Part shown: positions 8,854-24,601 of the stretch, piece after piece
How the letters are laid out: each line of letters begins with the position of its first letter
Position numbering within the stretch: position 1 is the stretch's first letter
Assembly (NCBI GenBank): GCA_003282885.1
Contig: QBYJ01000011.1
Coordinates: 1 to 38,777, forward strand
Direction: 5' to 3'
Origin: SAR116 cluster bacterium AG-325-F22
GTDB taxonomy: Bacteria > Pseudomonadota > Alphaproteobacteria > Puniceispirillales > Marisalimonadaceae
Length of the DNA stretch: 38,777 nucleotides
Translations under genes and position numbers: made by a program
Notes under the pieces: generated by a model
Database searches by the model: none
Seen by the model: the letters and a program-made list of their open reading frames with translations, nothing else
Told to the model about the DNA's origin: nothing

Positions 8854-9282
8854 TTAAATTTTATTTACTCTTAAACTATGCCTTCCAGCCTCAAAATCTG
8901 TATTTAAAAATTCATACACTATATCCATGGCCAAACTATCTGTTATAATTCTGCCACCTAAAGCGAGCACATTAGCATTATTATGCTTTCTACTTTTAGA
9001 TGCCATTTCGGCAGTTGTACATAGAGCTGCTCTTATATGCGAGTATCTATTTGCAGCCATAGAAATACCTATACCAGTGCCACAAAATAATATTCCTTGT
9101 GAATTTAGATCATTTATTAATTTATCTGATAAAAGTTTTGCGTAATCTGGATAATCAACTGCATCAAGAGAAAAACATCCTAAATCTTCTATTGGTTGTT
9201 TTTTTTTAATTAAGAAATCTTTGACTAATTCCTTCAATCTATAACCACCATGATCTGAGGCCAAAAAGATTTTTTTTAACAT
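8854..9282 (-). CDS. rpiB: Ribose-5-phosphate isomerase B
   Basis: RpiB converts ribulose 5-phosphate and ribose 5-phosphate in the pentose phosphate pathway. The 142-residue protein has FLASDHGGYRLKE at the start, the catalytic cysteine in GILFCGTGIGISMAANR, and NNANVLALGGR, all RpiB hallmarks. It precedes glyA, as in many alphaproteobacteria. About 100 A+T-rich bases separate it from the DUF1467 gene; a promoter there is possible but I cannot point to one. It can connect with the 6-phosphogluconate dehydrogenase found further along in the window. Confidence 0.95.
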   Translation of the reverse strand: MLKKIFLASDHGGYRLKELVKDFLIKKKQPIEDLGCFSLDAVDYPDYAKLLSDKLINDLNSQGILFCGTGIGISMAANRYSHIRAALCTTAEMASKSRKHNNANVLALGGRIITDSLAMDIVYEFLNTDFEAGRHSLRVNKI

Positions 9283-9384: not shown

Positions 9385-9627
9385 TTATATAATTGTTACA
9401 AAATACTTTAATAAACCTTCCACTACAATCCAATAAGTAAACACTGAAGGAATAAATGCAATTATGAAAGATAGAAAAAATTTAAGTTTAAGGTTGGTTT
9501 TTATTGGTGCTGAGTTTGCATTTCCTTGATTAGGTTTATCAGACACTTCAACGCCAAAAGGAAGAGACATAAAAAATACGATCAACCACATCATTAAATG
9601 AACTAAAATAAAGGATAAAGTACTCAT
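9385..9627 (-). CDS. DUF1467 family small membrane protein
   Basis: An 80-residue protein with two predicted membrane helices (about 5-22 and 48-75) separated by a short polar loop. The N-terminal LVHLMMWLIVFFMSLPFGVEV and C-terminal YWIVVEGLL fit the DUF1467 family, which in alphaproteobacteria sits just after the RNase J gene. The function is unknown. It starts 10 bases after the RNase J stop and so probably belongs to the same transcript. Confidence 0.8.
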   Translation of the reverse strand: MSTLSFILVHLMMWLIVFFMSLPFGVEVSDKPNQGNANSAPIKTNLKLKFFLSFIIAFIPSVFTYWIVVEGLLKYFVTII

Positions 9628-9637
9628 TTAACAAACT

Positions 9638-11293
9638 CTAAACTCTATTGACATGGACTTTAACTATCGGCCTTTTAGAAAAATATAACTTGAATTCTCG
9701 CCTAACTAATTTTGAAATTTGATTAATAAGTTCTTCATCTAACATTTCTTTAAAGGAAGATAGATTTTCTACAAAATCCTCTATTTTAAGAGATAAATCG
9801 ATTAAAATATTCTCAACAATATTACTATCAGACACACCTGTTTGAGATATTTGCGGAGTAATAACAAGGTATCCATCTTTATTGATAACTATAGAAATAG
9901 TAACAAATCCATTCCACAAAGAATGTCTTCTAGTTGTGAACCTTTCATTATTAATTGGAATTATTTCACCTGCGTCAAATACATGCGTAGTAAATTTAAT
10001 TTTAGATATTGCATTTGGAGTCTTTGCATTTAATTTAATAATTTCTCCATTTTTTGGCTTTATAACATTTGGTACTTGACAATTACTCGCTAAATCTGCG
10101 TGTGCTTCAATGTGTTCTCTAGTTCCATGAACAGGGATAGAAATTTTTGGTTTGATATATGAGTACATCTCTATAAGCTCGTCTCTTGATGGGTGTCCTG
10201 ACACATGAACATTTTTATCATCATCTGTAATTATTTCTATACCCCTTTCTAAAAATCTATTTTGTACTTTTAAAATTGCATTTTCATTTCCTGGAATTTT
10301 TCTACTAGAAAATATTAAGGTATCACCTTTTATCAGTTTGATAAATTTGTCAGCATCCTTGGAGATTCTAGAAAGTGCAGAGTTTGGTTCTCCTTGTGAA
10401 CCTGTGGAGATTATTAGAACATTTGACCTTGGAATAAGGCTTAAGTCCTTTAAAGACAATAAATCTGGAATATCTTTTAAAAATCCAACCTCTTTTGCTG
10501 CATCAATAGCTCTTAACAAAGCTCTACCTACTACTAAAACTGTTCTATCAGTTTTCAATGCAATATCTAATATTGACTTAATTCTACTTATATTTGATGA
10601 AAAACAAGTCACAAGTACTGTGCCTTTTCTATTTTTAATTGTATCTAACAAACCGTCATATGCAAAGTTTTCAGATGGAGTTTTACCATTAATTAGTGCA
10701 TTCGTTGAATCACAGACCATTGCTAATATTCCACTTGCACCTATTGAACGAAAGTTTTTTATATTAGTTTTTTCATTTAGGTTAAATGATTCTTCTAACT
10801 TCCAATCTCCTGAATGAAAGATATTACCTTCTTTTGTAGCAATTAATATTGAAACTGGATCAGGGATTGAGTGTGAAGTTTGAATAGCTTTGATTTGAAA
10901 AGGACCAATTTTAATTTGTTCATTAATAGTCAAAGTTTTTAATATTAATTTTTTTTCTTTATTATTTTCTTTCAACTTTCTTTTTAATAAGGCCATTGTA
11001 AATGATGTGCCCCAGATAGGACAATTAATATCATCTGCAAAATAAGGTATTGCTCCAATATGGTCTTCATGGCCATGAGTTAAAAATATACCTAAAAAAT
11101 CATCGCCTAAAGATTTAATGAATTCAAAATCTGGTAATAAAACATCTATACCTAAATCAGTTTCATCAGGAAATGAAATGCCTAAATCTATTAAAATCCA
11201 CTTGTCTTCAAAATGGTACAAATTTGCATTCATACCTATTTCTTCAGATCCTCCAACAGGTAGAAATAATAAATCAGATTTTTCCCAATGCAT
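9638..11293 (-). CDS. rnj: Ribonuclease J
   Basis: A 551-residue metallo-beta-lactamase/beta-CASP ribonuclease for mRNA decay and RNA maturation. The zinc motif THGHEDHIGA gives His73, His75, Asp77 and His78. Further blocks include FHSGDWK, the beta-CASP segment VLVVGRALLRAIDAAKEVG, STGSQGEP, SGHPSRDE and PVHGTREH. A C-terminal domain completes it. The coaX-rnj-DUF1467 order is conserved in alphaproteobacteria. It is separated from coaX by 19 bases. Long open frames on the opposite strand (for example 10338-10817) are shadows of this gene. Confidence 0.94.
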   Translation of the reverse strand: MHWEKSDLLFLPVGGSEEIGMNANLYHFEDKWILIDLGISFPDETDLGIDVLLPDFEFIKSLGDDFLGIFLTHGHEDHIGAIPYFADDINCPIWGTSFTMALLKRKLKENNKEKKLILKTLTINEQIKIGPFQIKAIQTSHSIPDPVSILIATKEGNIFHSGDWKLEESFNLNEKTNIKNFRSIGASGILAMVCDSTNALINGKTPSENFAYDGLLDTIKNRKGTVLVTCFSSNISRIKSILDIALKTDRTVLVVGRALLRAIDAAKEVGFLKDIPDLLSLKDLSLIPRSNVLIISTGSQGEPNSALSRISKDADKFIKLIKGDTLIFSSRKIPGNENAILKVQNRFLERGIEIITDDDKNVHVSGHPSRDELIEMYSYIKPKISIPVHGTREHIEAHADLASNCQVPNVIKPKNGEIIKLNAKTPNAISKIKFTTHVFDAGEIIPINNERFTTRRHSLWNGFVTISIVINKDGYLVITPQISQTGVSDSNIVENILIDLSLKIEDFVENLSSFKEMLDEELINQISKLVRREFKLYFSKRPIVKVHVNRV

Positions 11294-11312: not shown

Positions 11313-12107
11313 TCAAACAGGTTTGTTTTTTAAAAATAAATTGACTAATCCAATCAAAGTCAAATCATCAATTATATGGTCAATTGACTCTATAGAGTTT
11401 TTAAATAAATGACTTAATCCACCCGTTGCTATAACTTTGTGATTCGAAAATTTATCAATAGATTTAATTTTATATATTAAACCTTCAATCATTGATACAT
11501 AACCCCAAAATATGCCTGACTCCATAGCATTTATAGTGTTTTTACCAACAATTTCATTAATGTCAGTCAATGATTTCAAGGAAATTCTAGGAAGTCTTGC
11601 TGCAGCTAAATATAAAGCCTCCAAGGATAAATTTACTCCAGGTGCAATAATTCCTCCATTATAACTACCATCTTTTCCAACTAAATCAAAAGTCGTAGCT
11701 GTTCCTAAATCAATTATAATTGCTGGAGATAAATTTAGTTTTGCTGCCGCAAAAGAATTCACTAGACGATCAGCACCTGCTTCGTTTGGATTATCAATAT
11801 TAACTTTTATTCCAATTTCGAAGTTATTTTCTCCAACAACATATGACTTAACATTAAAATATTTTTTTATTAATGATTTAATATTTAAAAGTGTTTCAGG
11901 AACAACTGATGCAATGCATACCCCAGTAATATCTTTCAATCCAAAATTTGATAAATTTAACATTTGTAATAACCAAGGATAGTAAATATCAGCAGTTCTT
12001 TTAGAATCGTTATCAATTCTCCAACAACTTTCTTGTCGTATGTTTTTATTATAAGAATATAAAGCGAAAACGGTGTTCGTGTTTCCACAATCAATAGCTA
12101 AAATCAT
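11313..12107 (-). CDS. coaX: Type III pantothenate kinase
   Basis: CoaX phosphorylates pantothenate, the first step to coenzyme A. The 264-residue protein has the ASKHA-fold phosphate loop AIDCGNTNTVFALY, the central NEAGADRLVNS motif, IIDLGTATTFDLV, and GGIIAPGVNLSLEAL. It overlaps the end of birA by four bases (translational coupling). The birA-coaX-rnj order is the one that follows complex I genes in most alphaproteobacteria. Confidence 0.95.
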   Translation of the reverse strand: MILAIDCGNTNTVFALYSYNKNIRQESCWRIDNDSKRTADIYYPWLLQMLNLSNFGLKDITGVCIASVVPETLLNIKSLIKKYFNVKSYVVGENNFEIGIKVNIDNPNEAGADRLVNSFAAAKLNLSPAIIIDLGTATTFDLVGKDGSYNGGIIAPGVNLSLEALYLAAARLPRISLKSLTDINEIVGKNTINAMESGIFWGYVSMIEGLIYKIKSIDKFSNHKVIATGGLSHLFKNSIESIDHIIDDLTLIGLVNLFLKNKPV

Positions 12108-12844
12108 AGTAAATCATCAACTGGAAAAGTAATTGTTTCAACAGAATAATAATCTAAAATATTATTTTCAACTTGAACTTGTAAACAACCATCGTTTCCT
12201 AATCCTAGGAAAACGCCTGTTATTGGTTGCTTTAATGAATTAAAAGTTAAGCTAATTGTTTTTTCTCTATTCCTGATATATTTATTAATTCTATTTTTAA
12301 AATAAGAAAATCCCTCATCTTGCCAAATAAAATAATTATAAAAAATTTTATTTAAAATTTTGTAAGAAATTTGTTCTAAAGACATTTTATTTTTAATATA
12401 ATTATTAATTTTAGTCGTTTTCCATTTAGTTTCATATTGGGGAGTTTTTACAACATTTAAACCTATACCTACAATAATAAAATTATCAAAAGCTTCTAAT
12501 AAAACTCCAGAGATTTTTTTATTATCAATTAATACATCATTTGGCCACTTCAGTTCAATAAGATTCCTATTAATACCAAAATCTATTAAAGTTTCCAATA
12601 TTGAGTATCCAATTAATAGCGATAATTGATGCCAATCTATTTTATTCTTTTTTGGTCTAAAAATAGACGATAAAAATAAATTTCCCTCTAACGATTCCCA
12701 TTTATTTTTATTCCTGCCCCTTCCATTACTTTGTGCATAAGATAAATAAGAACTTCCTTCTAAAGAGCCCTTAATGGCTTCTTTTTTAGCAATATCGTTA
12801 GTACTAGAACAAGACTTTAAAATATTTAAATCAATATTAATCAA
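12104..12844 (-). CDS. birA: Biotin--[acetyl-CoA-carboxylase] ligase
   Basis: It attaches biotin to the biotin carboxyl carrier protein. The 246-residue protein has only the catalytic domain; the DNA-binding N-terminal helix-turn-helix of E. coli BirA is absent, so it is not expected to act as a repressor. Seen motifs: KSCSSTNDIAKKEA, the biotinyl-AMP loop SNGRGRNKNKWES (family GRGRxGR.W) and LKWPNDVLIDNKKISGVLLE. It follows the NuoL-like gene after 33 bases and overlaps coaX by 4. Confidence 0.93.
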   Translation of the reverse strand: MINIDLNILKSCSSTNDIAKKEAIKGSLEGSSYLSYAQSNGRGRNKNKWESLEGNLFLSSIFRPKKNKIDWHQLSLLIGYSILETLIDFGINRNLIELKWPNDVLIDNKKISGVLLEAFDNFIIVGIGLNVVKTPQYETKWKTTKINNYIKNKMSLEQISYKILNKIFYNYFIWQDEGFSYFKNRINKYIRNREKTISLTFNSLKQPITGVFLGLGNDGCLQVQVENNILDYYSVETITFPVDDLL

Positions 12845-12877
12845 AAATATTACCTTAATGTTTAAATTAACAAAACT

Positions 12878-14572
12878 TTAACGGTTTAAATCAAGATATG
12901 ATGAATATTTATTAAAATGCCTATTATGTTTAATTTTAGCATAATTTCCTATTTTGGGAATTACGACATAATTAAAAATAGATAAGAATAAACCTAAAAA
13001 ACAAATAACATTTGTTAAATTTATAAACCAATCATATATTTCATATTTGTGTTTTATTGAATAATCTGCATAAATATTTAATACTAAATTCCACAAATAT
13101 TCTGAATTTGAACCAGAAAATAAATTATTTAGAAACCAACCAGAAAAAATTAAAAATATTGTCAACACAAGTAGTATTGTTTTAGTCAAAAACATTTTTT
13201 CATCAATTTTATCATATAGATGGATATTACAATTATTTTGACATAAAAATACAACTAAAATATTTTTAAATAAAGTATAGGATAATAAAAATATATAACA
13301 AAAACATATCATCATAAGAAAAGAAATGTTAAATTCATTTAATAGCAAAAGTGAAGAAAAAATTAACTTTTTAGAATAAAAGCCAGAAAAAAAAGGAATT
13401 CCAATTAATGAAAAAGAACTAATTAATGTGAATAAAAATGTAGAAGGAGTCTTAATTAAAAGAGATCCCATTTTGTTTATTTGATATTCACCATTAAGTT
13501 TTATCATTATAATTGTAAAGCTTAAAAAAAGCATTGTTAAGGATAATGTTGAGGTGATTAAATAAAAGAACGCACCATTATATACTTTTAGTCCAATTAA
13601 AAAGATTATTATGCCGAATTGGGAAGAAGCAATATATAATGCCAGACTTTTTAAATCTTTTGAATTGAAAAATAATAAAGTAAAAATTATTATTAAAAAA
13701 AGACCTAATAATGCAATTATATTAAAAAAATTATAAGATGTCTGAATTAATGGTAAAAAACGTAAGAGAAAATAAATTCCGGAGGGTATATATATTGCTG
13801 AAAATAATAAAGCAAATGTGGAAGGTTTAATTTTTAAATAGTAATATATTGAACTTTGTTTAAAAAATTGTCTGCATCTCAATAAAAAAGATAAAAATAA
13901 AATTAATAAAATTAACTCAAAACTAGTGATTTCTAGATCAAGGAATATTAATTTATTGTTTGTTGCAAAGTAATTACTTTCAAATATGACGTCAAAATTA
14001 ACTGAATTTGTGTATGAGTAAAGAAAAAACAAACATAAAAAAATACCTAAATCTGATAGTCTGTTATAGATAAACACTTGATCTTTATTATTTGGATCCT
14101 TTTGTTTTTTTGACTTATTTATTAAAAAATAGGAAGACATTATTATTATTTGCCAACCTACAAATAATTGAATTAAATTATTAGAAGACACCAGTATTAA
14201 TATACCAAATATTGATAGAGATGAGTTTTTAATTATTTTTAGATCAAATTTATTTTCTTCATATATACTTATTGAATAAATTGTGAAGATAGTTGCAAAA
14301 AAAGTTATAATAATGATTAATCCCGATACAAATAAATCTAACCTTAAAGACCAATCAATTAAAAAGTGTTCTAATTTTATAATTGAATAAAAATAAAGAG
14401 GCAGATCACTATCTAAATTTAATAATTTTAAAAATATAAATATACTTATCATAAATGATGAACTCATGAAAACTGAGTGCAAAATAAATAACAAATTTGT
14501 TTTTTTCATTTTTTCCAAAAACTGGAAAGTTAAAAAACTCAGTAAGGGAAAAATAAACAACAATATTTCCAT
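12878..14572 (-). CDS. NuoL-like (complex I / Mrp antiporter family) membrane protein lacking key proton-path residues
   Basis: A 564-residue polytopic protein with about 14 membrane segments. Its middle aligns by eye to NuoL: IYSISIYEE, LVSSNNLIQLFVGWQ, YNRLSDLGIFLCLFFLY with SVNFDVIF, and IGIPFFSGFYSKKLI. Compared with E. coli NuoL as I recall it, Glu144 is Gln141, Lys229 is Arg232, the TM histidine after PTPVSALI is Phe257, and the HLMTHAFFK histidines and lysine are Tyr337, Ser341 and Leu345. Asp178 (Asp174) and Lys399 (Lys401) remain. The long C-terminal lateral helix seems shortened. It therefore probably does not pump protons. It lies between nqrF and birA, where nuoN is normally found. 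The frame is also open to a TTG at 14599, but the ATG at 14572 has a GAG upstream and is preferred. Relict or new role is open. Confidence 0.75.
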   Translation of the reverse strand: MEILLFIFPLLSFLTFQFLEKMKKTNLLFILHSVFMSSSFMISIFIFLKLLNLDSDLPLYFYSIIKLEHFLIDWSLRLDLFVSGLIIIITFFATIFTIYSISIYEENKFDLKIIKNSSLSIFGILILVSSNNLIQLFVGWQIIIMSSYFLINKSKKQKDPNNKDQVFIYNRLSDLGIFLCLFFLYSYTNSVNFDVIFESNYFATNNKLIFLDLEITSFELILLILFLSFLLRCRQFFKQSSIYYYLKIKPSTFALLFSAIYIPSGIYFLLRFLPLIQTSYNFFNIIALLGLFLIIIFTLLFFNSKDLKSLALYIASSQFGIIIFLIGLKVYNGAFFYLITSTLSLTMLFLSFTIIMIKLNGEYQINKMGSLLIKTPSTFLFTLISSFSLIGIPFFSGFYSKKLIFSSLLLLNEFNISFLMMICFCYIFLLSYTLFKNILVVFLCQNNCNIHLYDKIDEKMFLTKTILLVLTIFLIFSGWFLNNLFSGSNSEYLWNLVLNIYADYSIKHKYEIYDWFINLTNVICFLGLFLSIFNYVVIPKIGNYAKIKHNRHFNKYSSYLDLNR

Positions 14573-14660
14573 ATTATAACTCAAACATTTTAATATCAAA
14601 ATATTTAGTAAAACAGCTATTAATTAACTTAAATTATTAATAAATTAATTAGATTAATAA

Positions 14661-15881
14661 TTATCCACCAAAATCATCAAGCATAATATCTTCTCTATCA
14701 ACTCCTAAGTCAAGAAGCATATTGATAACTGATTGGTTCATCATTGGAGGACCACACATATAAAACTCACAATCCTCAGGGGCTGGATGATCTTTTAAAT
14801 ATTGTTCGTACAACACATTATGTATAAATCCAGTGTGACCTTCCCATTTATCTTCAGGCATTGCATCTGAAAGAGCAACATGCCAGCTAAAATTAGGATT
14901 ATCTTTATCTAATTTGTCAAAATCTTCTACGTAAAACATTTCTTTCTTTGATCTGGCACCATACCAAAAAGTAACTTTGCGTTTTGTCTTAATTCTATTG
15001 AATTGATCAAAAAGATGACTTCTCATCGGAGCCATACCAGCTCCGCCGCCAATAAAAACCATCTCTTTATCAGTTTCTCTAGCATAAAACTCACCGAAAG
15101 GACCAGATATTACAACTTCATCACCTGCTTTTAAGTTAAAGATGTATGATGACATTTTACCTGCTGGGATACCTGAAGATCCAGGTGGAGGAGACGCAAT
15201 TCTTACATTTAACATTACTATACCTTTTTCGGCAGGACAATTAGCCATTGAATAAGCTCTTTCAATAGGTTCATTACTTTCGGCATTGAAGTCCCATATT
15301 TTAAATCTGTTCCAATCTTCATGATATTCTTCATCAACGTCAAAATCCTTATAGGACAAAGAATATTTTGGAGCCTCAATCTGTATATAACCACCAGCAC
15401 GAAAATTTACATCTTCGCCTTCTGGTAATTCTAATATTAATTCTTTTATAAATGTAGCCACGTTATCATTGCTACGAACTTTACATCTCCATTTTCTTAC
15501 ACCAAAAACTTCTTCTGGAACTTCAATTTGCATATCTTGCTTAACTGCAACTTGACAAGATAATCTGTCACCACAAGACGCTTCTCTTTTATTAATGTGC
15601 CCAAGTTCAGTTGGGAGAATCGATCCACCACCAGCGTGAACTTTAACTCTGCATTGAGCACATGTGCCGCCACCACCACAAGCTGAAGGTACGAAAAGTT
15701 TTTCAGAAGCTAATGTTTGTAATAATTTACCACCTGCAGGAACTGTGACGGTCTTTTCACCATTAATGGTGATATTAACATCGCCAGAAGAAACTAATTT
15801 ACTTCGCGCTAGTACTATTATTGAAACTAAAGTTAGTACAATCATTGTAAAAAGAGTTATACCGAGAATAAAAGTGTCCAT
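14661..15881 (-). CDS. nqrF: Na+-translocating NADH:quinone reductase subunit F
   Basis: NqrF takes electrons from NADH and passes them through FAD and a 2Fe-2S cluster into the sodium pump. The 406-residue protein has one N-terminal membrane helix (about 4-25), a plant-type ferredoxin domain with Cys68, Cys74, Cys77 ([12 protein letters not shown]) and Cys109, an FAD domain with RAYSMAN near residue 212, and an NADH domain with [14 protein letters not shown] and the C-terminal CGPPMMN. It ends in DDFGG, the common terminus of NqrF. It is the last of the six nqr genes, 12 bases after nqrE, and about 88 bases before the NuoL-like start. Confidence 0.97.
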
Positions 15882-15893
15882 TTATTTAAATCC

Positions 15894-16505
15894 TTAAAGT
15901 TTAACACCAGAAAAACACATAAAAGCCATAGCCATTAATCCAGCAGTAATGAATGTAATACCCAAGCCTTGAAGACCATCTGGAATATCACTATATTTAA
16001 GTTTTTCTCTTACTCCAGCCATTGTAGCTATAGCCAAAGCCCAACCAAAACCAGAAGCTATTCCATAGGTTGTAGCTTCAGAAAAATTATAATCCCTTTC
16101 AACCATAAATAATGAACCACCTAAAATTGCGCAATTAACTGTTATTAATGGTAAAAAAATACCTAATGCGTTGTATAAAGGTGGAAAATACTTGTCTAAA
16201 ATCATTTCTAAAATTTGAACTAATGCTGCAATAACACCAATATAGGATATCAATCCTAAAAATGTCAAATCAACATCAGGAAAGCCTGCCCACGCAAGGG
16301 CTCCAGGCTTAAGTAAATAAGATAATATAATGTTATTAGCTGGAACAGTTATAGACTGAACTATCATTACTGAAATGCCAAGACCAATAGCAGTAGAAAT
16401 TTTTTTAGATACAGCAATAAATGTACACATACCAAGAAAGAAAGACAGTGCAAGATTTTCAACAAATATTGCTTTTACAGCTAATGAAATCAGGGCTTCC
16501 ATCAA
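15894..16505 (-). CDS. nqrE: Na+-translocating NADH:quinone reductase subunit E
   Basis: NqrE is one of two related six-helix membrane subunits (with NqrD) that hold the intramembrane iron centre. The 203-residue protein starts [24 protein letters not shown], with the Cys of the FLGMC motif, and has a second Cys in [10 protein letters not shown], the symmetric partner. These cysteines are the recognised iron ligands of the family. It overlaps nqrD by four bases. Confidence 0.97.
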
Positions 16506-17155
16506 TGAATCTCTAATGATTGTATTTTATATTCTCGAGCTTCAACTTGCGATTTCTTCCAAGAACGGACACCCCAAATTAAAAAACCAATTATAAAAAA
16601 TGCGGATGGCGGCAATAACAATAATCCGTTTGGAACATACCATCCACCATTGTTTACTGAGTCTAAAATAGTTATTCCAAATAAAGTACCTGATCCAAAA
16701 AGTTCTCGAACAACACCTACACACATTAATAACAAGCTATAGCCTAACCCATTTCCAACTCCATCAACAAAAGAATTGAAAGGAGTATTTTTCATCGCAA
16801 AAGCTTCTGCTCTTCCCATAACAATACAGTTTGTTATTATTAATCCAACAAATACAGATAAAGTTTTTGAAATTTCATAAGCGTAAGCCTTTATTATTTG
16901 ATCAACAAGGATAACAAGAGAAGCTATTATAACCATCTGGACAATTATTCTTATAGAATTTGGGATATAATTTCTTAGGAAAGAGATAAATAACGAGGAA
17001 AATCCTGTAACAGCAATAACAGCTAAAGACATAACAAAGGCTACATTCAAAGAAGAGGTTACTGCTAAAGCTGAGCAAATACCCAAAACCTGAAGAGTTA
17101 TAGGATTATTATCAACTAAAGGATCGACTAGTAATTGTTTTCTAGTCTGTGACAT
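16502..17155 (-). CDS. nqrD: Na+-translocating NADH:quinone reductase subunit D
   Basis: The 217-residue partner of NqrE in the membrane core. Six hydrophobic segments are visible; [10 protein letters not shown] near the start and [19 protein letters not shown] in the middle carry the two cysteines that with those of NqrE bind the iron cofactor. [12 protein letters not shown] is a further family block. Start and stop overlap nqrC by one base and nqrE by four, a tight operon. Confidence 0.97.
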
Positions 17156-17946
17156 TAAGCCGCTCCATTTTTTAAATTATTAAGAAATTTTTTAAAGCCA
17201 TCTTTACCCATCCAAAACTTTACTAAATTATCTACGCCATTGGAAGTAAGTGTAGCTCCTGCTAATGCATCAATATGATGTTCTTTATATTTTTGAGTTT
17301 TAGCAACTTGTATCATTAATTCGCCATTTTCATTATTTAACTTTTTACCTTTCCACTGAGCTTTCCATTTAGGATTATCAACTTCAGCACCTAAACCAGG
17401 TGTTTCAGCATGTTGATAAAATTGAAGACCAAAAATATCATTAAGATTATCCTCTAATGCAATAAAGCCATATAATGTAGACCATAAACCATATCCATGG
17501 ATAGGTAGAATAACTTTATCTAGGGATCCATCATCTTTTTTTAATAGATAAATAGTAGCATAGTTAGTTCTTCTTCCTATAGATGCAGGATCATTTTCTA
17601 GAGACACACTTAGCAATGGATCTTGAGCTGCTTTTTTATCATCAAAAATTGATGGGTCAAATTTATCAGTAAATTTACCACTATTAAGGTCGACAACCAA
17701 TGGTTGGAATGAAGAAAATGTTTTATTTACGTCAATGCCTTCATAATAAACGCCCGCTACTTGCAGAATATTTTTTTGCTTATCAATTGCTTTATTAACT
17801 TCCTGAATAGACTTAAGGTTTACAGCGGCAAAAGAGACAACCATAGAACAAACAAAGCATAAAGCAGTTGCGACTATAATTGTTTTAAAAATACCATCGA
17901 CTGGCATATTTTTAAATTTTGTAAATATATTGTTTGAATCAGACAC
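17155..17946 (-). CDS. nqrC: Na+-translocating NADH:quinone reductase subunit C
   Basis: NqrC has one N-terminal membrane helix (about 20-42) and a periplasmic domain with covalently bound FMN. The flavinylation motif D-x-x-x-G-A-T is [13 protein letters not shown], so FMN should be on Thr232 through a phosphoester bond made by ApbE. Other family blocks are [14 protein letters not shown] and [11 protein letters not shown]. Length 263 is normal. The start overlaps nqrB by 8 bases. Confidence 0.96.
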
Positions 17947-19147
17947 TTGATATAGCCCTTCTTTTGATGTTCGCCATTACTACAAAATGATCTATCAATG
18001 GAGCAAAAATATTTCCAAATAAAATCGCTAACATCATTCCTTCTGGAAATGCTGGGTTTAAAACTCTTATCATCACAACCATGAAACCAATTAAAGCCCC
18101 ATAAATATAACGACCCATATTAGTATGGCTAGCAGAAACTGGCTCTGTAACCATAAATACTAAACCAAAGGCGTAACTACCAATTACTAAATGCCAATAC
18201 CACGGCATGCTAAACATAGGGTTAGTATCAGAACCAACCCAATTTAAAAAAGATGAAAAGACTATCATACCTAATAAACAGCCAACAATCATTCTATAGT
18301 TAGCTATCTTTGTCATCAAAAGAAAAACTAACCCCATACCTATGGCTAGCGTTGAAGTCTCACCTAATGATCCTTGAATGTTACCTAAGAATGCGTCTAG
18401 CCAAGTTATTCCATAATTGCTAAGATTTTCATAACCTTCAGATGCTGAAATACCTAAGGAAGTAGCAGCAGAATAACCGTCAACTGGTGTCCAAATTGAA
18501 TCACCTGACATGTAAGCTGGGTAAGCAAAATATAAAAATGCACGACCTGTGAGGGCAGGATTAAGGAAATTTTTACCAGTCCCTCCAAACACTTCTTTTC
18601 CAACAACAACTCCAAAGGCTATACCTAGAGCAACTTGCCACAAGGGGGTAGATGCGGGTAAAGTAAGTGCAAAAAGCATAGAAGAAACTAAAAAACCTTC
18701 ATTAACCTCATGTCCTCTTATTGTAGCAAACGTGACTTCACATATACCACCTGCAATCAGAGTTGTTAGATAAATAGGAAGAAAATATAATAAACCATGA
18801 GAAATATTAGATAATAGACTTTGTGGATCGAGTCCAAGTCCTGTTAATTTTAAAAGAGCAATTCTCCAACCTATTTCACCACTTGAACCGACAGAAGCTA
18901 AAGCTGTGTTGGTTTGAAAACCAGTATTATATAAAGCCCACAATATGCAAGGTATGGTTGATATAACGACATAAGTCATTATTCTTTTCATATCAACAAA
19001 ACTTCTGGCGTGAGGAGCTACTTTTGTTACAGTATTACTAGTAAAAAGTATTGTCTCAACCATTTCAAAGATCGGATAATATTTTTCATACTTTCCACCT
19101 CTTCCAAAATGAGGTTCAATAGAATTGAAATAACTACGTAATGACAT
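17939..19147 (-). CDS. nqrB: Na+-translocating NADH:quinone reductase subunit B
   Basis: NqrB is the ten-helix subunit carrying covalent FMN and, in the known enzyme, riboflavin, and forming the sodium path. The 402-residue protein has the family blocks GGKYEKYYPIFE, EVFGGTGKNFLNPAL and the C-terminal VTEPVSASHTNMGRYIYG. The FMN motif, usually D-G-x-S-G-A-T, reads VDGYSAATS here (Thr229), so the Gly before Ala-Thr is Ala. The gene overlaps nqrC by 8 bases and follows nqrA by 3. Confidence 0.96.
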   Translation of the reverse strand: MSLRSYFNSIEPHFGRGGKYEKYYPIFEMVETILFTSNTVTKVAPHARSFVDMKRIMTYVVISTIPCILWALYNTGFQTNTALASVGSSGEIGWRIALLKLTGLGLDPQSLLSNISHGLLYFLPIYLTTLIAGGICEVTFATIRGHEVNEGFLVSSMLFALTLPASTPLWQVALGIAFGVVVGKEVFGGTGKNFLNPALTGRAFLYFAYPAYMSGDSIWTPVDGYSAATSLGISASEGYENLSNYGITWLDAFLGNIQGSLGETSTLAIGMGLVFLLMTKIANYRMIVGCLLGMIVFSSFLNWVGSDTNPMFSMPWYWHLVIGSYAFGLVFMVTEPVSASHTNMGRYIYGALIGFMVVMIRVLNPAFPEGMMLAILFGNIFAPLIDHFVVMANIKRRAISSV

Positions 19148-19150
19148 TAA

Positions 19151-20494
19151 TTAACCTTCTTTCTCAATTTTTTGAAGACTTTCTCTTAAAGCTACACCAT
19201 ATTCATATTTAGCAGGACAAGCAAAAGTGCATAAAGCTACGTCTTCTTCGTCTAATTCTAAAGCACCTAAAGACTGAGCAACGTCAGTATCCATAACCAA
19301 CAATGATCTTAACAATTGGGTAGGTAAAAGGTCTTGTGGCATTAAAGTTTCAAAGATACCTGTAGGTACCATTGCCCTTCTACCACCATTTAGATTTGAT
19401 GTTAAATTAAATAACTTAAAAAAACTAAACGCTGATAGTAAAACTGGCATTACAGAAAATTTGCTAGGTTGTGGTTTAATCCAACCAAAAAAATGTTTTT
19501 CTTTATCTTCTTTTATGATTGTTATTTGACGAGAATATTTTCCTAAATAAGCCAAATCATCAACAGCATGAAACCCAGACAAGACTGAACCTGAAATTAC
19601 TCTGCAATTTTCAGTTTTTGGGTATTCACCCTCAAGTATATCATCTAAAGATGCGCCTAAAACTGTTTTAACTAATCTTGGGTTGTTGGCAAGAGGTCCT
19701 GCAATTGATACAATTCGATCTATATTAATAAAGCCTGTAGAAAATAGTTTGCCTATGGCGATAACGTCTTGATAGCCAATTGACCATACAGTTTTATCAG
19801 AGCTTGGAGGATCAAGAAAGTGCATGTGTGTACCTGGCAAACCAGCAGGATGTGGGCCTGCAAATTCGCATGTTTCAAATTCGCTAGATTTAATACTGCT
19901 ATTTTCTTTTTTACAAATGAACACCTTACCATCCGTGAGCGAAGAAATCTTTTTGACGCCTTCATTAAAAGCTTTTAAATCATTATTAATAATTAATTCT
20001 GCGTCTGGGCATAACGGCTCAGTGTCCATAGCTGTAACAAAAATTGAAGAAGGTTTTGAATCACTTGCTGGAACCTTTGAATAAGGCCTTGTTAGGAATG
20101 AAGTCCATAAACCACTATCTAACAAGCAATTTTTAATAAATTCATTCTTATTTTTAATCTTTGAATGTAATTTTGTTATTGCTATTCCCTTATGAGCAAA
20201 ATCTTCAACTTCTATTACAACGCTTAAAAGAACTCTTTTTTCTCCTCTATTAATTTCTGAAACTTTTCCTTTGCAGGGAGACACATACAAAATTTCTTGA
20301 TGGTCTTTATGGCAAAAAAGTGGGGTACCTCTTACAACACTGTCACCTACATTGATAAGCATTTTAGGTTTAAGACCATTGTATTCAGGACCTAATACAG
20401 CAACTGTTCTAGGATGTTCAATATCATTAATAACTTGCTTCGGAATTCCCAATATCGGTAAGTCTAAACCTTTTTTTAATTTAAATTTTTTCAT
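19151..20494 (-). CDS. nqrA: Na+-translocating NADH:quinone reductase subunit A
   Basis: NqrA is the soluble cytoplasmic subunit with a quinone-related role and no redox cofactor. The 447-residue protein starts FKLKKGLDLPILGIP, as the family does (ikikkGLDlPi.G.P), and shows AVLGPEYNGLKPKM, RPYSKVP.....PSSIFVTAMDTEPL and ISGSVLSGFHA. It is the first gene of the nqr operon; a promoter is proposed at about 20565-20593. The ribosome-binding site before its ATG is weak. Confidence 0.97.
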   Translation of the reverse strand: MKKFKLKKGLDLPILGIPKQVINDIEHPRTVAVLGPEYNGLKPKMLINVGDSVVRGTPLFCHKDHQEILYVSPCKGKVSEINRGEKRVLLSVVIEVEDFAHKGIAITKLHSKIKNKNEFIKNCLLDSGLWTSFLTRPYSKVPASDSKPSSIFVTAMDTEPLCPDAELIINNDLKAFNEGVKKISSLTDGKVFICKKENSSIKSSEFETCEFAGPHPAGLPGTHMHFLDPPSSDKTVWSIGYQDVIAIGKLFSTGFINIDRIVSIAGPLANNPRLVKTVLGASLDDILEGEYPKTENCRVISGSVLSGFHAVDDLAYLGKYSRQITIIKEDKEKHFFGWIKPQPSKFSVMPVLLSAFSFFKLFNLTSNLNGGRRAMVPTGIFETLMPQDLLPTQLLRSLLVMDTDVAQSLGALELDEEDVALCTFACPAKYEYGVALRESLQKIEKEG

Positions 20495-20731: not shown

Positions 20732-21754
20732 ATGTCATACTTTAATTTTTTTATCTATATAATTCTTTATTTGTTATTATCATCATGTGCTGAAAATAAA
20801 AGTCATAATGTTGACCTAAAAGGCAATACTATGGGTACTTATTATTTAATAAGCTTAGTAGACATTCCGAAAACTATAACGAAAGAAAAATTACAATTAG
20901 AGATTAAAGATGCTTTGTCTAAAGCTAATAAAATTTTATCTAATTGGGATGAAACTTCAGAAATTAGTCAATTAAATAACAATAGAACTACAGAACCAAT
21001 CATTATCTCTAATGATTTAATAAATGTTTTCAAGGAGGCAATTATTATAAATGATAAAAGCAATGGATATTTTGATTTAACATTAGATCCATTGATAGAA
21101 TTGTGGGGGTTTGGTTATTCAAAAAACAACACTATTGAGAGAGTTCCAAGTAAAGATAAAATAAAAGACACTCTAACCTTAGTTAGTCAAAATAAACTGC
21201 TACACATTAATTCCAAAAATCAATTATTAAAAAAAAATGAAGATGTTAAACTAAATTTATCAGCTATAGGTAAAGGTTACGGAATAGATATCATTGCTAG
21301 AACATTGGATGATCTAAATATAAAAAATTATATTATTGATATTGGAGGAGATATATTTGTAAAAGGACATAATAAAAATAATACAGATTGGGTAATTGGA
21401 ATAGAAAATCCAAAATTAGATGAGAAGTTGATCAAAGAGATTATTACTGTATCAAATAAAGGAGTAGCTACTTCAGGCGATTATAAAAATTACTTTTCAA
21501 AAAATGGAACAACATATTCACATATCATTAATCCTAAAAATGGGATGCCGATTACACACTCAACAAAATCAGTTACAGTAGTATATAAAAATGCAATGAG
21601 TGCGGACGGATGGGCAACAGCACTACTTGCTATGGGAAGTAAAGTAGGATTAAAGGTTGCAGAAAATGAAAAAATTGCTGTTATGTTTGTGGATGAAGTA
21701 GAGGATAAATTATTGAAAATTAAAAGTAGCCAGTTTAAAAATTTAAATAAGTAA
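20732..21754 (+). CDS. apbE: FAD:protein FMN transferase ApbE (lipoprotein)
   Basis: ApbE moves FMN from FAD onto threonines of NqrB and NqrC in the periplasm. The 340-residue protein has a lipoprotein signal peptide ending LLLSSCAEN (lipobox LSSC). The family motifs are GNTMGTYYLISL, NLSAIGKGYGID, IDIGGDI, the HIINPKNGMPI block and SADGWATALLAMG with the metal-binding Asp. It is divergent from nqrA and is followed by nqrM, so the maturation genes sit beside the operon they serve. Confidence 0.96.
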   Translation: MSYFNFFIYIILYLLLSSCAENKSHNVDLKGNTMGTYYLISLVDIPKTITKEKLQLEIKDALSKANKILSNWDETSEISQLNNNRTTEPIIISNDLINVFKEAIIINDKSNGYFDLTLDPLIELWGFGYSKNNTIERVPSKDKIKDTLTLVSQNKLLHINSKNQLLKKNEDVKLNLSAIGKGYGIDIIARTLDDLNIKNYIIDIGGDIFVKGHNKNNTDWVIGIENPKLDEKLIKEIITVSNKGVATSGDYKNYFSKNGTTYSHIINPKNGMPITHSTKSVTVVYKNAMSADGWATALLAMGSKVGLKVAENEKIAVMFVDEVEDKLLKIKSSQFKNLNK

Positions 21755-21792: not shown

Positions 21793-21999
21793 ATGGAAAT
21801 TTTCTTTATCACATTTATAATCGTATCTATAATAATAATACTAATGTCGCTTGGTGTAATGTTAATGGGTAAAAACATTAAAGGCAGTTGTGGTGGTCTT
21901 AATGCAATTTCTGGATCAGATAAGTGCTCAATATGTAATAAGGATATAGATCCTAATAATCCTCTTATTGACCAACTAAATTGCAAAAGAAATAACTAA
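21793..21999 (+). CDS. nqrM: Na+-NQR maturation protein NqrM
   Basis: A 68-residue protein with one N-terminal membrane helix (about 4-26) followed by GKNIKGSCGGLN and a CSICNKD motif. These four cysteine-region features are those of NqrM (formerly DUF539), required for Na+-NQR maturation and thought to deliver the iron of NqrD/NqrE. It is 38 bases after apbE and likely cotranscribed. A 65-residue opposite-strand frame over the same bases is a shadow. Confidence 0.93.
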   Translation: MEIFFITFIIVSIIIILMSLGVMLMGKNIKGSCGGLNAISGSDKCSICNKDIDPNNPLIDQLNCKRNN

Positions 22000-22243: not shown

Positions 22244-23137
22244 CTAATTAACCTGATCTCTCTTTTTTTCAAACATATAAATTCCTAAGAAAATTAAAAT
22301 TAAAGAAATTAAGTGATACAATTTGAATAACTCACCAAGAAGAAGAACTGCTAAAATAGAAGCAAACACAGGTACTAGGTTAGTGTAAAGACCTGATCTT
22401 GCTGGTCCAATTTTTTCAACTCCTTTCATAAAAAATATTTGCGCTAAAAAAGATGGAAAAATAATTATAATACTTAAAATGATTATACCTTTCATACCTG
22501 GCAAAACTAAATTGCTATTGAAAGTTTCATAAAATAATCCAGGTAAAGATCCAATAAATGCTACATACGAAAAGAATGTAAGTAAAACTAAAGCTCCAAT
22601 TTTTGGTTTTTTTCTAAGCCCTACAGCATAAACAGCATATAAAGTACAAGCAAATATCATCACAATATCTCCTTTGTTTAATTGAAGTGTCATAAGTGCG
22701 TAAAGATTTCCTGAACTTACAACTAACAAAACAGCAACAAACGTAATGATTACGCCAATTAGTTGGGGTATATTTATTTTTTCTTTTAACCAAATTCTAG
22801 ATATAATTATTATAAAAGCAGGCATAGTACCTTGAACTAATCCTAGATTTATAGCTATAGTATCATGTGCGGCAATATAATAAAAAGAGTTGAAACTAGT
22901 AAAACCAAACAAACCCATAATGACTAACCATTTGAGTCTATATTTTAAAACTTTCCAAGTTTCAAACAACTCTTTTCTACATAAAAAAGTTAATAAAATT
23001 GATACAAAAAACCATCTGACGCTTACAACAAGCAATGGTGAAACTTCATCTACTGCTGCCCTGCCTGCAATTGTATTAAAAGCCCAAAACAAAGAAGTTA
23101 AGGTTAATAAAAAATGTGCGTTAGTGAATATTTTCAT
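22244..23137 (-). CDS. EamA/DMT family transporter
   Basis: A 297-residue protein with about ten membrane helices in two EamA repeats, each near 140 residues. Repeat 1 has the usual FWAFNTIAGRAAVDEVSPLLVVSVRW...  opening; repeat 2 starts around NKGDIVMIFACTLYAVYAVGLRK and ends with LVPVFASILAVLLLGELFKLYH, the family's E-containing block. Substrate cannot be read from sequence; members export amino acids or metabolites. It is divergent from the molybdenum hydroxylase genes with 111 bases between. Two EamA genes with similar layout follow the hydroxylase. Confidence 0.9.
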   Translation of the reverse strand: MKIFTNAHFLLTLTSLFWAFNTIAGRAAVDEVSPLLVVSVRWFFVSILLTFLCRKELFETWKVLKYRLKWLVIMGLFGFTSFNSFYYIAAHDTIAINLGLVQGTMPAFIIIISRIWLKEKINIPQLIGVIITFVAVLLVVSSGNLYALMTLQLNKGDIVMIFACTLYAVYAVGLRKKPKIGALVLLTFFSYVAFIGSLPGLFYETFNSNLVLPGMKGIIILSIIIIFPSFLAQIFFMKGVEKIGPARSGLYTNLVPVFASILAVLLLGELFKLYHLISLILIFLGIYMFEKKRDQVN

Positions 23138-23248: not shown

Positions 23249-24118
23249 ATGTCAGATACTCAATACTTAGCAGCCTCCACAATTGAAGAAGCTGTTAATG
23301 CTCATTCAAAAGCAAATGGTTCGGCTAGATTTTTAGCTGGAGGTACAGATTTATTAGTTCAAATTAAGAGTGGGATTAGAAAACCTAACTTAGTTATTGA
23401 TGTTAAAAAAATAGTTGAATTAAATTCGATAGAAGAAATATCAGAAAATGAATTTGTAGTTGGTGCCTCTGTGTCAGGTGTTAACTTAAATAGAAACAAA
23501 AAATTTTCTAAACTTTGGCCAGGTGTTCTTGAAGCATTTAGACTTATTGGTTCTGAACAAATACAAGGAAGAGCTTCGTTAGGTGGGAATATTTGTAATG
23601 GATCTCCAGCAGGTGACAGCGTGCCAGCATTGATTGCTGCTGGATGTATAGCTTTAATAGCTGGGCCAAATGGTAAAAGAGAGATACCAATTGAAGAATT
23701 TCATATTGGTCCTGGAAAAACTGTGTTGGATAATGGAGAAATGTTAGTAAGCCTAAAATTTCCAAAACGTGAAATAAACTCCTCTGACGCCTATTTGAGG
23801 ATGACACCAAGAACTGAAATGGATATAGCTGTTGTAGGCTGTGGAGTTAACATCACTTTTGAGAATAACGTTTGTACTGCTGCTAGAGTTTCTTTAGGCG
23901 CAGTTGCTCCAACACCTCTTCTTATAAGAGAAGCATCCAAAATAATGGTCGGCTCAGATCTTAATTCTGAAATTTTAGATAAAGTTTCAAATATATGCAT
24001 GGATTTATGCGACCCTATTGATGACAAAAGAGGAACTATAGATTACAGAACTAAAGTTGCTGGTGTTTTATTTAAAAGAGCAACATTAACCACAATTGAT
24101 AGAATTAAAGGAAATTAA
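23249..24118 (+). CDS. Molybdenum hydroxylase, FAD-binding (medium) subunit
   Basis: The FAD subunit of a xanthine-dehydrogenase-family enzyme, passing electrons from the iron-sulfur subunit to an acceptor. The 289-residue protein has the two FAD motifs: FLAGGTDLLVQIK (32-44) and RASLGGNICNGSPAGDSVPAL, followed by the C-terminal CO-dehydrogenase-type domain with GVNITFENNVCTAARVSLGAVAPTPL and DYRTKVAGVL. A GGGAG ribosome-binding site sits 6 bases before the ATG. It is first in a medium-small-large run, with 3 bases to the next gene. The order resembles coxMSL, but see the large subunit. Confidence 0.92.
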   Translation: MSDTQYLAASTIEEAVNAHSKANGSARFLAGGTDLLVQIKSGIRKPNLVIDVKKIVELNSIEEISENEFVVGASVSGVNLNRNKKFSKLWPGVLEAFRLIGSEQIQGRASLGGNICNGSPAGDSVPALIAAGCIALIAGPNGKREIPIEEFHIGPGKTVLDNGEMLVSLKFPKREINSSDAYLRMTPRTEMDIAVVGCGVNITFENNVCTAARVSLGAVAPTPLLIREASKIMVGSDLNSEILDKVSNICMDLCDPIDDKRGTIDYRTKVAGVLFKRATLTTIDRIKGN

Positions 24119-24121
24119 CTT

Positions 24122-24601
24122 ATGGCTAAAATTCAAGTGTCAACAAAAATTAATAATGAAAATGTCGATTATCTATGTGAACCTCATGACACTATGTTAG
24201 ACGTTTTAAGAAACCAATTAGAGCTAACAGGTTCTAAAGAAAGTTGTGGCTCAGGTGATTGTGGTTCCTGCAGTATTATTTTAGATGGTGAACTTGTTTG
24301 CTCATGCTTAATGTTAGCCGCTGAAGCCGAGGGTAGTAAATTAGAGACGATTGAAGGTATGTCAGAAGGTGGAAAACTTCATGCCTTACAACAAAAGTTT
24401 TTAGAAAAAGCAGCGTTACAATGCGGTATTTGTACACCTGGTTTTCTGATGGCATCAAAAGCTTTGCTTGATCATAATCCATCACCAACTGAAACTGAAG
24501 TAAGATTTTGGTTAGCTGGAAATTTATGTAGATGTACTGGTTATGATAAAATCGTAAAAGCGGTTCTTGAAGTTGCTGATGATATGAAGGAGAGTGCTTA
24601 A
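24122..24601 (+). CDS. Molybdenum hydroxylase, 2Fe-2S (small) subunit
   Basis: The 159-residue small subunit binds two 2Fe-2S clusters. The plant-type cluster uses Cys42, Cys47, Cys50 and Cys62 (ESCGSGDCGSCSII ... CSCLML); the helical-domain cluster uses Cys101, Cys104, Cys136 and Cys138 (LQCGICTPGFLM ... GNLCRCTGYDKI). All eight ligands are present. Its stop overlaps the ATG of the large subunit. Its 120-codon opposite-strand frame (24276-24638) is a shadow. Confidence 0.95.
   Translation: MAKIQVSTKINNENVDYLCEPHDTMLDVLRNQLELTGSKESCGSGDCGSCSIILDGELVCSCLMLAAEAEGSKLETIEGMSEGGKLHALQQKFLEKAALQCGICTPGFLMASKALLDHNPSPTETEVRFWLAGNLCRCTGYDKIVKAVLEVADDMKESA

Follow-up and report, generated by a model that had tools for sequence, protein, structure and literature searches.

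A Na+-NQR operon and a NuoL-like gene at what appears to be the former complex I locus of a SAR116 bacterium

SAR116 cluster bacterium AG-325-F22 (GCA_003282885.1) carries, on contig QBYJ01000011.1, the six-subunit operon of a sodium-translocating NADH:quinone oxidoreductase (Na+-NQR, genes nqrABCDEF) at the place where sister genera carry nuoA-N, the genes of respiratory complex I. The whole contig, 38,777 nt, was analyzed and is called the window here; the assembly to which it belongs comprises 1.6 Mb in 88 contigs and is 63% complete. On the minus strand of the window, nqrABCDEF (20494 to 14661) is followed by a NuoL-like gene, which we call LL (12878..14572), and then by birA-coaX-rnj-DUF1467-rpiB; apbE and nqrM are divergent from the operon, on its upstream side. 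A sequence-only reading of this DNA had proposed that nqr replaced nuo in place, and comparison with relatives supports this well and from both sides: the locus is a former nuo locus.

The full course of events that we favor is, in our judgment, very probable. The ancestor shared by the host's genus and its nqr-bearing sister genus would have received, between a gene for an EamA-family transporter and nuoA, an nqr cluster of alphaproteobacterial type, with nqrM-apbE divergent from nqrABCDEF. Complex I would then have been deleted from nqrF onwards, with most members of the genus keeping a single NuoL-derived gene, LL.

Shared flanks of the nuo and nqr loci

Four genera of one family are compared: the host's own genus (g1), a sister genus with nqr (g3), and two nuo-bearing genera (g2 and g4). 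From relatives, 52 stretches were fetched, and gene order was read by tblastn in 51 of them. The rule that birA-coaX-rnj follows the nuo genes was borne out in 15 nuo loci of the order (5 in g2 and g4, 10 in other families), all with nuoA-N then birA-coaX-rnj; among these, nuoM and nuoN are incomplete in G048 and the contig of G045 ends within rnj. The incomplete pair in G048, a nuo-bearing sister, also looks joined (L068:5334-6317), through a deletion or an assembly error.

In g1 and g3, nqrA-F, followed by LL in most g1 genomes, occupies nuo's place before birA-coaX-rnj. LL lies between nqrF and birA in 16 of the 18 g1 loci that have both on one contig, the window counted. It is missing, with nqr kept and the order otherwise the same, from G030 and G027 of g1 and from both g3 genomes; for the rest of g1, contig ends interrupt this stretch or it was not found. 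SAR116 cluster records L085-L089, with NqrF 93-99% identical, have the same order as far as their contigs reach. Because the gene order of the window recurs on single contigs of relatives, it is neither chance nor the product of one misassembly. In the metagenome-assembled genome G035 (L052), the nqrA and nqrE matches both fall into two pieces, and the one to nqrA contains an in-frame stop; sequencing error is a possible cause.

On the other side, an EamA ortholog (56-62% identity) directly precedes nuoA in all five g2 and g4 nuo loci, and of the 20 fetched nqr loci with apbE, 19 have EamA ahead of nqrM-apbE-nqrA, all but G041 (g3). Thus, in g2 and g4, nuoA-N sits between the same two flanks that enclose nqr in the window. 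A tree of birA, coaX, and rnj joins nqr-bearing g1 and g3 in one clade (support 99/99), sister to nuo-bearing g2 and g4 (100/100), which indicates that the downstream flank is native.

It is hardly credible, therefore, that nqr reached its place beside birA without any connection to nuo loss and that the shared neighborhood is coincidence. Most nqr loci elsewhere are not near nuo, as that explanation would have it (a nuo gene occurs in the fetched flank of 4 of 75 non-SAR116 nqr loci, 69 of which extend at least 3 kb past nqrF), but here both flanks are nuo flanks and a NuoL-derived gene lies between them. No relative was found among those compared in which nqr precedes birA without nuo loss.

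Distribution of complex I and NQR among relatives

Complex I and NQR were sought in 81 related genomes: 40 of g1 (the host, G000, included), 2 of g3, 4 of g2, 3 of g4, and 32 of other families. NuoD is present in 1/40, 0/2, 3/4, 2/3, and 30/32 of these, respectively. NqrA has the reverse pattern, with 28/40 in g1, 2/2 in g3, and 0/39 in the other genomes, g2 and g4 among them. NuoD is missing from G009, G013, G014, G022, and G030 (g1) and from G041 (g3), all rated 90-100% complete; as the remaining g1 genomes are 52-89% complete, single absences among them mean little. NuoF exceeded its cut-off in 1 of the 30 g1 genomes searched, G029 alone. The expectation that no complete nuo operon lies elsewhere in the genome thus held for g1, in which complex I was not found outside G029 in searches whose genome-wide part was confined to NuoD, NuoF, and NuoL-like matches, with neither the other nuo subunits nor type II NADH dehydrogenase (NDH-2) included.

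G029 has 5% contamination. Its NuoD and NuoF lie on contig C96 (L072), a second nuoJ-N-birA-coaX-rnj set lies on contig C68 (L071) with rnj at 37% identity, and its own nqr locus is on contig C112. We considered and set aside the idea that these nuo genes are g1's own complex I, and treat C68 and C96 as foreign contigs. Also set aside were NuoF-family matches of about 370 bits in g1, which are under the cut-off and occur across the order beside true NuoF; they probably represent a formate-dehydrogenase-type subunit. One further member of the order, G078 (95% complete), has no NuoD, NqrA, or rnj match and is probably missing a contig.

Origin of the nqr genes and their maturation genes

NQR is rare in the class: the NqrA cut-off was passed by 8 of 385 sampled genomes, the host's own included. 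In a tree of the joined NqrA-F proteins (quick search under LG+G4, with 101 of 106 rows retained), the 16 SAR116 rows (Shimodaira-Hasegawa-like approximate likelihood-ratio test [SH-aLRT] 99) have two Methylophilales as their sister group (100). Both fall within the NQR clade of Alphaproteobacteria, where UBA1957 and the SP147 group are their neighbors (100), followed by Pseudoruegeria (94). Two divergent alphaproteobacterial rows group with the gammaproteobacterial outgroup, and the NQR tree and the flank tree place g3 and G029 differently. Judged by this tree, the nqr genes of the window are of alphaproteobacterial type, one of the two origins that the sequence-only reading had left to be distinguished. 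Passages of Salcher et al. (PMC6794327) agree in tracing the NQR of HTCC2181 to the marine Roseobacter lineage.

The earlier reading had also pictured apbE and nqrM as brought next to the operon. They do stand beside it; their separate recruitment found no such backing. Among 66 other nqr loci, 39 have a divergent apbE upstream of nqrA at no more than 1.5 kb, 21 have it downstream of nqrF, and 6 have it in neither position, so a separate recruitment of the maturation genes is improbable.

Relatives that resemble intermediate stages

Outside SAR116, several lineages have nqr and nuo at one locus. In UBA1957, the Rhizobiaceae metagenome-assembled genomes of L137 and L143, and G335, nqr stands immediately upstream of nuo, and all four genomes have NuoD. 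Reading on past nuoN led to birA and rnj in UBA1957, in G335, and in the genome of L143, the last of these without a match to coaX; in G335, genes recognized by eye as lon and hup are found upstream of nqr. Within the SP147 group, G461 and G471 have nqrA-F, then nuoJKLMN, then birA-coaX-rnj, and G469 has nqrA-F and nuoJKLMN up to a contig end in nuoN. By locus (L091, L202, L203, and L207), the group shows nqrA-F, nuoJKLMN with open frames, and birA-coaX-rnj, L203 being read to a contig end in nuoN, and no NuoD was found with them. In G488, nqrA-F and birA-coaX-rnj enclose a nuoN remnant (L205:9740-10585) that spans roughly NuoN residues 202-465 and contains a stop and frame changes; in G470 and G472 the contig breaks off inside nqr. 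None of the six SP147-group genomes (G461, G469, G470, G471, G472, and G488), for which completeness is not given, yielded NuoD.

Relatives with nqr upstream of nuo, with nuoJKLMN, or with a broken nuoN together suggest that nqr was inserted upstream of nuoA and that erosion followed. From these earlier-looking stages in other lineages we infer that insertion preceded deletion. The replacement proposed from the sequence stands, with the correction that two steps are suggested and that the NuoL-like gene would be their residue.

The membrane-arm residues of the SP147 group were read in G461, G469, and G471. NuoK has lost E36 and E72 in 3/3. In NuoL, D178, H338, K342, K399, and D400 are substituted in 3/3, E144 is kept in 3/3, and K229 and H254 are kept in 2/3. 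NuoM has lost E407 in 3/3, E144 and K234 in 2/3, and K265 in 1/3, and NuoN keeps E133, K217, and K395 in 3/3 and K247 in 2/3. Between G461 and G469, the ratio of nonsynonymous to synonymous substitution rates (dN/dS) of nuoJ-N is 0.17-0.24 by the Nei and Gojobori method (NG86) and 0.21-0.38 by the Yang and Nielsen method (YN00); that of nqrDEF is 0.016-0.032 (NG86). This arm is thus altered but not uniformly dead. The SP147-group set is, in its own right, a combination of NQR with complex I arm genes under purifying selection.

Descent of LL

LL has its best matches in NuoL/ND5. It scores 215.3 bits against TIGR01974 (NuoL), not reaching the cut-off of 407.5, and matches Pfam Proton_antipo_M; it is collinear with NuoL in an almost gap-free alignment, and its residues 37-488 align to chain L of 8qby (E 2e-40). 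A tree sets LL and NuoL apart from NuoM and NuoN (100/100, with a long-branch warning). MrpA and MrpD belong to the same superfamily, yet the match to MrpA is far weaker (7.8e-11) and no mrp partner genes adjoin LL, whose neighbors are nqrF and birA. At the locus LL is also without its partner genes nuoA-K, nuoM, and nuoN, and outside the contaminated G029 neither NuoD (40 genomes) nor NuoF (30 genomes) was found in the genus. A structure prediction for LL from five rows gave a mean predicted local distance difference test score of 49 and was judged too poor to use.

LL may not descend from the nuoL of the host. An SP147-like donor, in which nqr already stood before an altered nuoJKLMN, may have supplied it together with nqr, an origin that we regard as possible, if doubtful. 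LL was placed in trees with and without NuoM/NuoN and with SP147-group NuoL, all with long branches. The best tree joins LL to SP147-group NuoL (support 51/100); moreover, the nqr genes of the SP147 group and UBA1957 adjoin the SAR116-Methylophilales clade, and in both nqr abuts nuo or its remains. However, LL and SP147-group NuoL are both very long-branched and their join is weakly supported, so it may be an artefact; the trees do not reject LL with the NuoL of its family; and the two Methylophilales, sisters of SAR116 in the NQR tree, have no nuo gene in the stretches fetched.

Lost residues and selection on LL

Sixteen LL copies were compared with 15 NuoL rows, in which the scored residues never vary. 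E144, K229, H254, H338, K342, and D400 are substituted in 16/16 LL copies and kept in 15/15 NuoL rows; E144 has become Q, Y, or H, and D400 is E in one copy. K399 is kept in 5/16 and substituted in 11, and H334 is kept in 9/16 and substituted in 7. The helix VIII residues T257, M258, and V259 are, like H254, substituted throughout. LL also stops at NuoL residue 571 of 643, so that the C-terminal lateral helix and the last helix, about 70 residues, are missing. We take H334, H338, K342, and R175 to be proton-path residues of NuoL. Roles for E144, K229, D178, H254, K399, and D400 are described in passages of PMC4938563 and PMC9271201. LL thus aligns with NuoL/ND5, of which structures are solved (e.g., 8qby and 3rko), but lacks most proton-path residues and the C-terminus; with the former largely substituted and the C-terminal anchor lost, it is most likely a membrane protein that does not pump, next to a Na+ pump.

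All 16 copies read are open over 559-573 residues, the flagged stops lying outside these frames. In three pairs the dN/dS of LL is 0.23-0.30, that of nqrA-F 0.00-0.08, and that of birA 0.16-0.21; in other pairs LL has 0.17-0.37, and its ratio is well below 1 in every pair that yielded a value. Such low ratios point to purifying selection on LL and speak against pure decay. It is accordingly improbable that LL is a functionless relic being lost, although this would suit its fast evolution (81-82% identity where nqrF has 99%), the replaced residues, its absence from four genomes with an otherwise intact locus, and the disrupted nuoN that G488 has in this position.

Could LL and the SP147-group nuoJKLMN have been recruited as partners of NQR, as an accessory subunit or as a Na+/H+ antiporter that turns the sodium gradient into a proton gradient? 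We think this rather unlikely. Frames are intact over a wide divergence with dN/dS of 0.17-0.30 (NG86), pieces of complex I are kept beside nqr in two lineages (SAR116 and the SP147 group), and the SP147 group retains NuoL E144 and NuoN E133, K217, and K395. In passages of PMC4938563, a single NuoL in B. subtilis supports Na+ tolerance and E144Q or K229A changes little, so loss of those two residues alone does not speak against a cation role outside complex I. Yet the helix VIII residues H254, T257, M258, and V259, mutated in the same work, are lost in every LL copy; G030, G027, and both g3 genomes keep nqr without LL; SP147-group NuoK is without E36 and E72; and the host has a separate Mrp-like cluster. 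A bolder proposal is that, after NQR took over a nuo locus, parts of the complex I arm were kept twice (NuoL in SAR116, NuoJKLMN in the SP147 group) as altered, largely silenced subunits working with the sodium pump; this would be a hybrid of NQR with a complex I arm, an assembly of which the literature searched gave no description, and we consider it unlikely.

Points that weigh against the favored explanation

Our preferred explanation remains insertion of nqr at the nuo site, deletion of complex I, and LL as the leftover, and several findings weigh against it. A clade of LL with the NuoL of its family was not rejected (p 0.16; p 0.285) yet was not recovered, and of 19 diagnostic columns, 2 speak for descent of LL from family NuoL, 3 against, and 14 neither way. 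The residue losses are not uniform: K229 is Arg in 16/16 LL copies, which preserves the charge, and R175 and D178 are kept in all of them. No SAR116 genome with both nqr and nuo was found, contaminated G029 aside. With the host assembly 63% complete, the absence of NuoD rests on relatives, many of them incomplete. Lastly, G157 and G142 (L168 and L169; other families, 95 and 100% complete) have nqr, no NuoD, and no nuo gene in the fetched stretch, the contig of G142 ending just past nqrF; loss of nuo beside nqr, therefore, need not involve this locus.

Energy coupling

The NQR of the window is, from its subunits and motifs, a predicted sodium pump. For each of NqrA-F, at least one NCBIfam equivalog model of that subunit is matched above its cut-off, and both maturation factors, ApbE and NqrM, are encoded at the locus. 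NqrB has the motif DGYSAAT, with Thr at the expected position for flavin mononucleotide (FMN), and NqrC has AGATLTS; NqrF has Cys 68, 74, 77, and 109, NqrD has Cys 27 and 110, and NqrE has Cys 27 and 125. Presumably the motif Thr residues of NqrB and NqrC are the FMN acceptors and the NqrF cysteines hold the 2Fe-2S center; the NqrD and NqrE cysteines are likewise those expected of these subunits.

NADH oxidation through NQR would now make a sodium gradient. Sodium-type ATP synthase c subunits carry an E-S-T sodium signature. No sign of a sodium-driven ATP synthase was seen in the three g1 copies of the c subunit, which are identical, read LTEAVALF without that signature, and resemble those of nuo-bearing relatives of the order. 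As the ATP synthase looks proton-driven, the sodium gradient would need conversion for ATP synthesis, and a separate Mrp-like antiporter would have to interconvert the two gradients. A Mrp-like multisubunit cluster lies on host contig C1 (L231) and includes subunits of 497, 485, and 569 residues; it was assigned by gene size, gene order, and weak NuoL-family matches, with no profile run. Comparable subunits gave matches in many genomes across the order.

Relation to published work

It is important to note that the replacement itself is already published: passages of PMC8547437 (2021) report nuo-to-nqr replacement, with an adjacent nuoL, in the SAR116 genera LGC2-C and LGC2-D. Presumably g1 and g3 correspond to these genera, the event and the adjacent nuoL being the same. 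Those passages do not give the locus boundaries, the residue state of nuoL, selection, or intermediates, which are given here. They name HTCC2181 as nearest in nqr; in our tree HTCC2181 is sister to SAR116, both beside UBA1957 and the SP147 group. Other marine lineages, Marinimicrobia (PMC6143742) and Methylophilaceae (PMC6794327), likewise exchange nuo and nqr, but the passages concern presence, absence, and transfer rather than in-locus replacement with a leftover subunit.

In the literature searched, we did not find the exact flanks, the loss of LL residues and of its C-terminus under selection, or the SP147-group stages, nor a description of relatives with nqr upstream of an intact nuo; some of this may appear in Figure S4 of PMC8547437, which deals with the locus. 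Those first three points are also absent from passages of PMC4014512, PMC6143742, PMC6794327, PMC8879329, and PMC12361115. With both flanks in hand and living relatives at apparent intermediate steps, the order of events in a switch from proton to sodium at the main respiratory entry enzyme becomes testable by comparison. Natural NuoL-type proteins and NuoJKLMN sets that are selected after losing many charged residues bear, in addition, on the roles of these subunits other than proton transfer. There is a practical side too: NuoL serves as a phylogenetic marker for Alphaproteobacteria (passages of PMC8879329), and relics such as LL could mislead trees built on it.

Genes of the window

Profile matches confirmed the order, coordinates, and names that had been assigned to nqrABCDEF, the NuoL-like gene, and birA-coaX-rnj-DUF1467 on the minus strand. 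From the upstream flank, the EamA-family transporter gene (22244..23137, minus strand; Pfam EamA) is followed by nqrM on the plus strand (21793..21999; four Cys; Pfam NqrM 29.5 bits, cut-off 22) and by apbE, for FAD:protein FMN transferase, also on the plus strand (20732..21754; Pfam ApbE 271.6 bits). All further genes are on the minus strand: nqrA (19151..20494; TIGR01936 498 bits, cut-off 321), nqrB (17939..19147; TIGR01937 516, cut-off 350), nqrC (17155..17946; TIGR01938 248, cut-off 144), nqrD (16502..17155; TIGR01939 331, cut-off 245), nqrE (15894..16505; TIGR01940 329, cut-off 248), and nqrF (14661..15881; TIGR01941 680, cut-off 295). LL, the putative NuoL relic, encodes 564 residues from the conserved start MEILLF, its longest open reading frame running from 14599.

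The downstream flank begins with birA (12104..12844; TIGR00121 137 bits, cut-off 83) and continues with coaX, for type III pantothenate kinase (11313..12107; Pfam Pan_kinase 219 bits). The RNase J family gene rnj (9638..11293) scores 399.7 bits against TIGR00649, 0.3 short of its cut-off of 400, and 128 bits against Pfam RNase_J_b_CASP, above its cut-off. DUF1467 (9388..9627; Pfam 49.3 bits, cut-off 29.4) and rpiB (8854..9282; TIGR01120 163 bits, cut-off 139, and synteny) close the block as far as it was followed. At the other end, a xanthine-dehydrogenase-like three-gene set (23249-26838) adjoins the locus; comparison with G002, G013, G030, and G044, from g1 and g3, gave identities of 81-99% for the corresponding genes.

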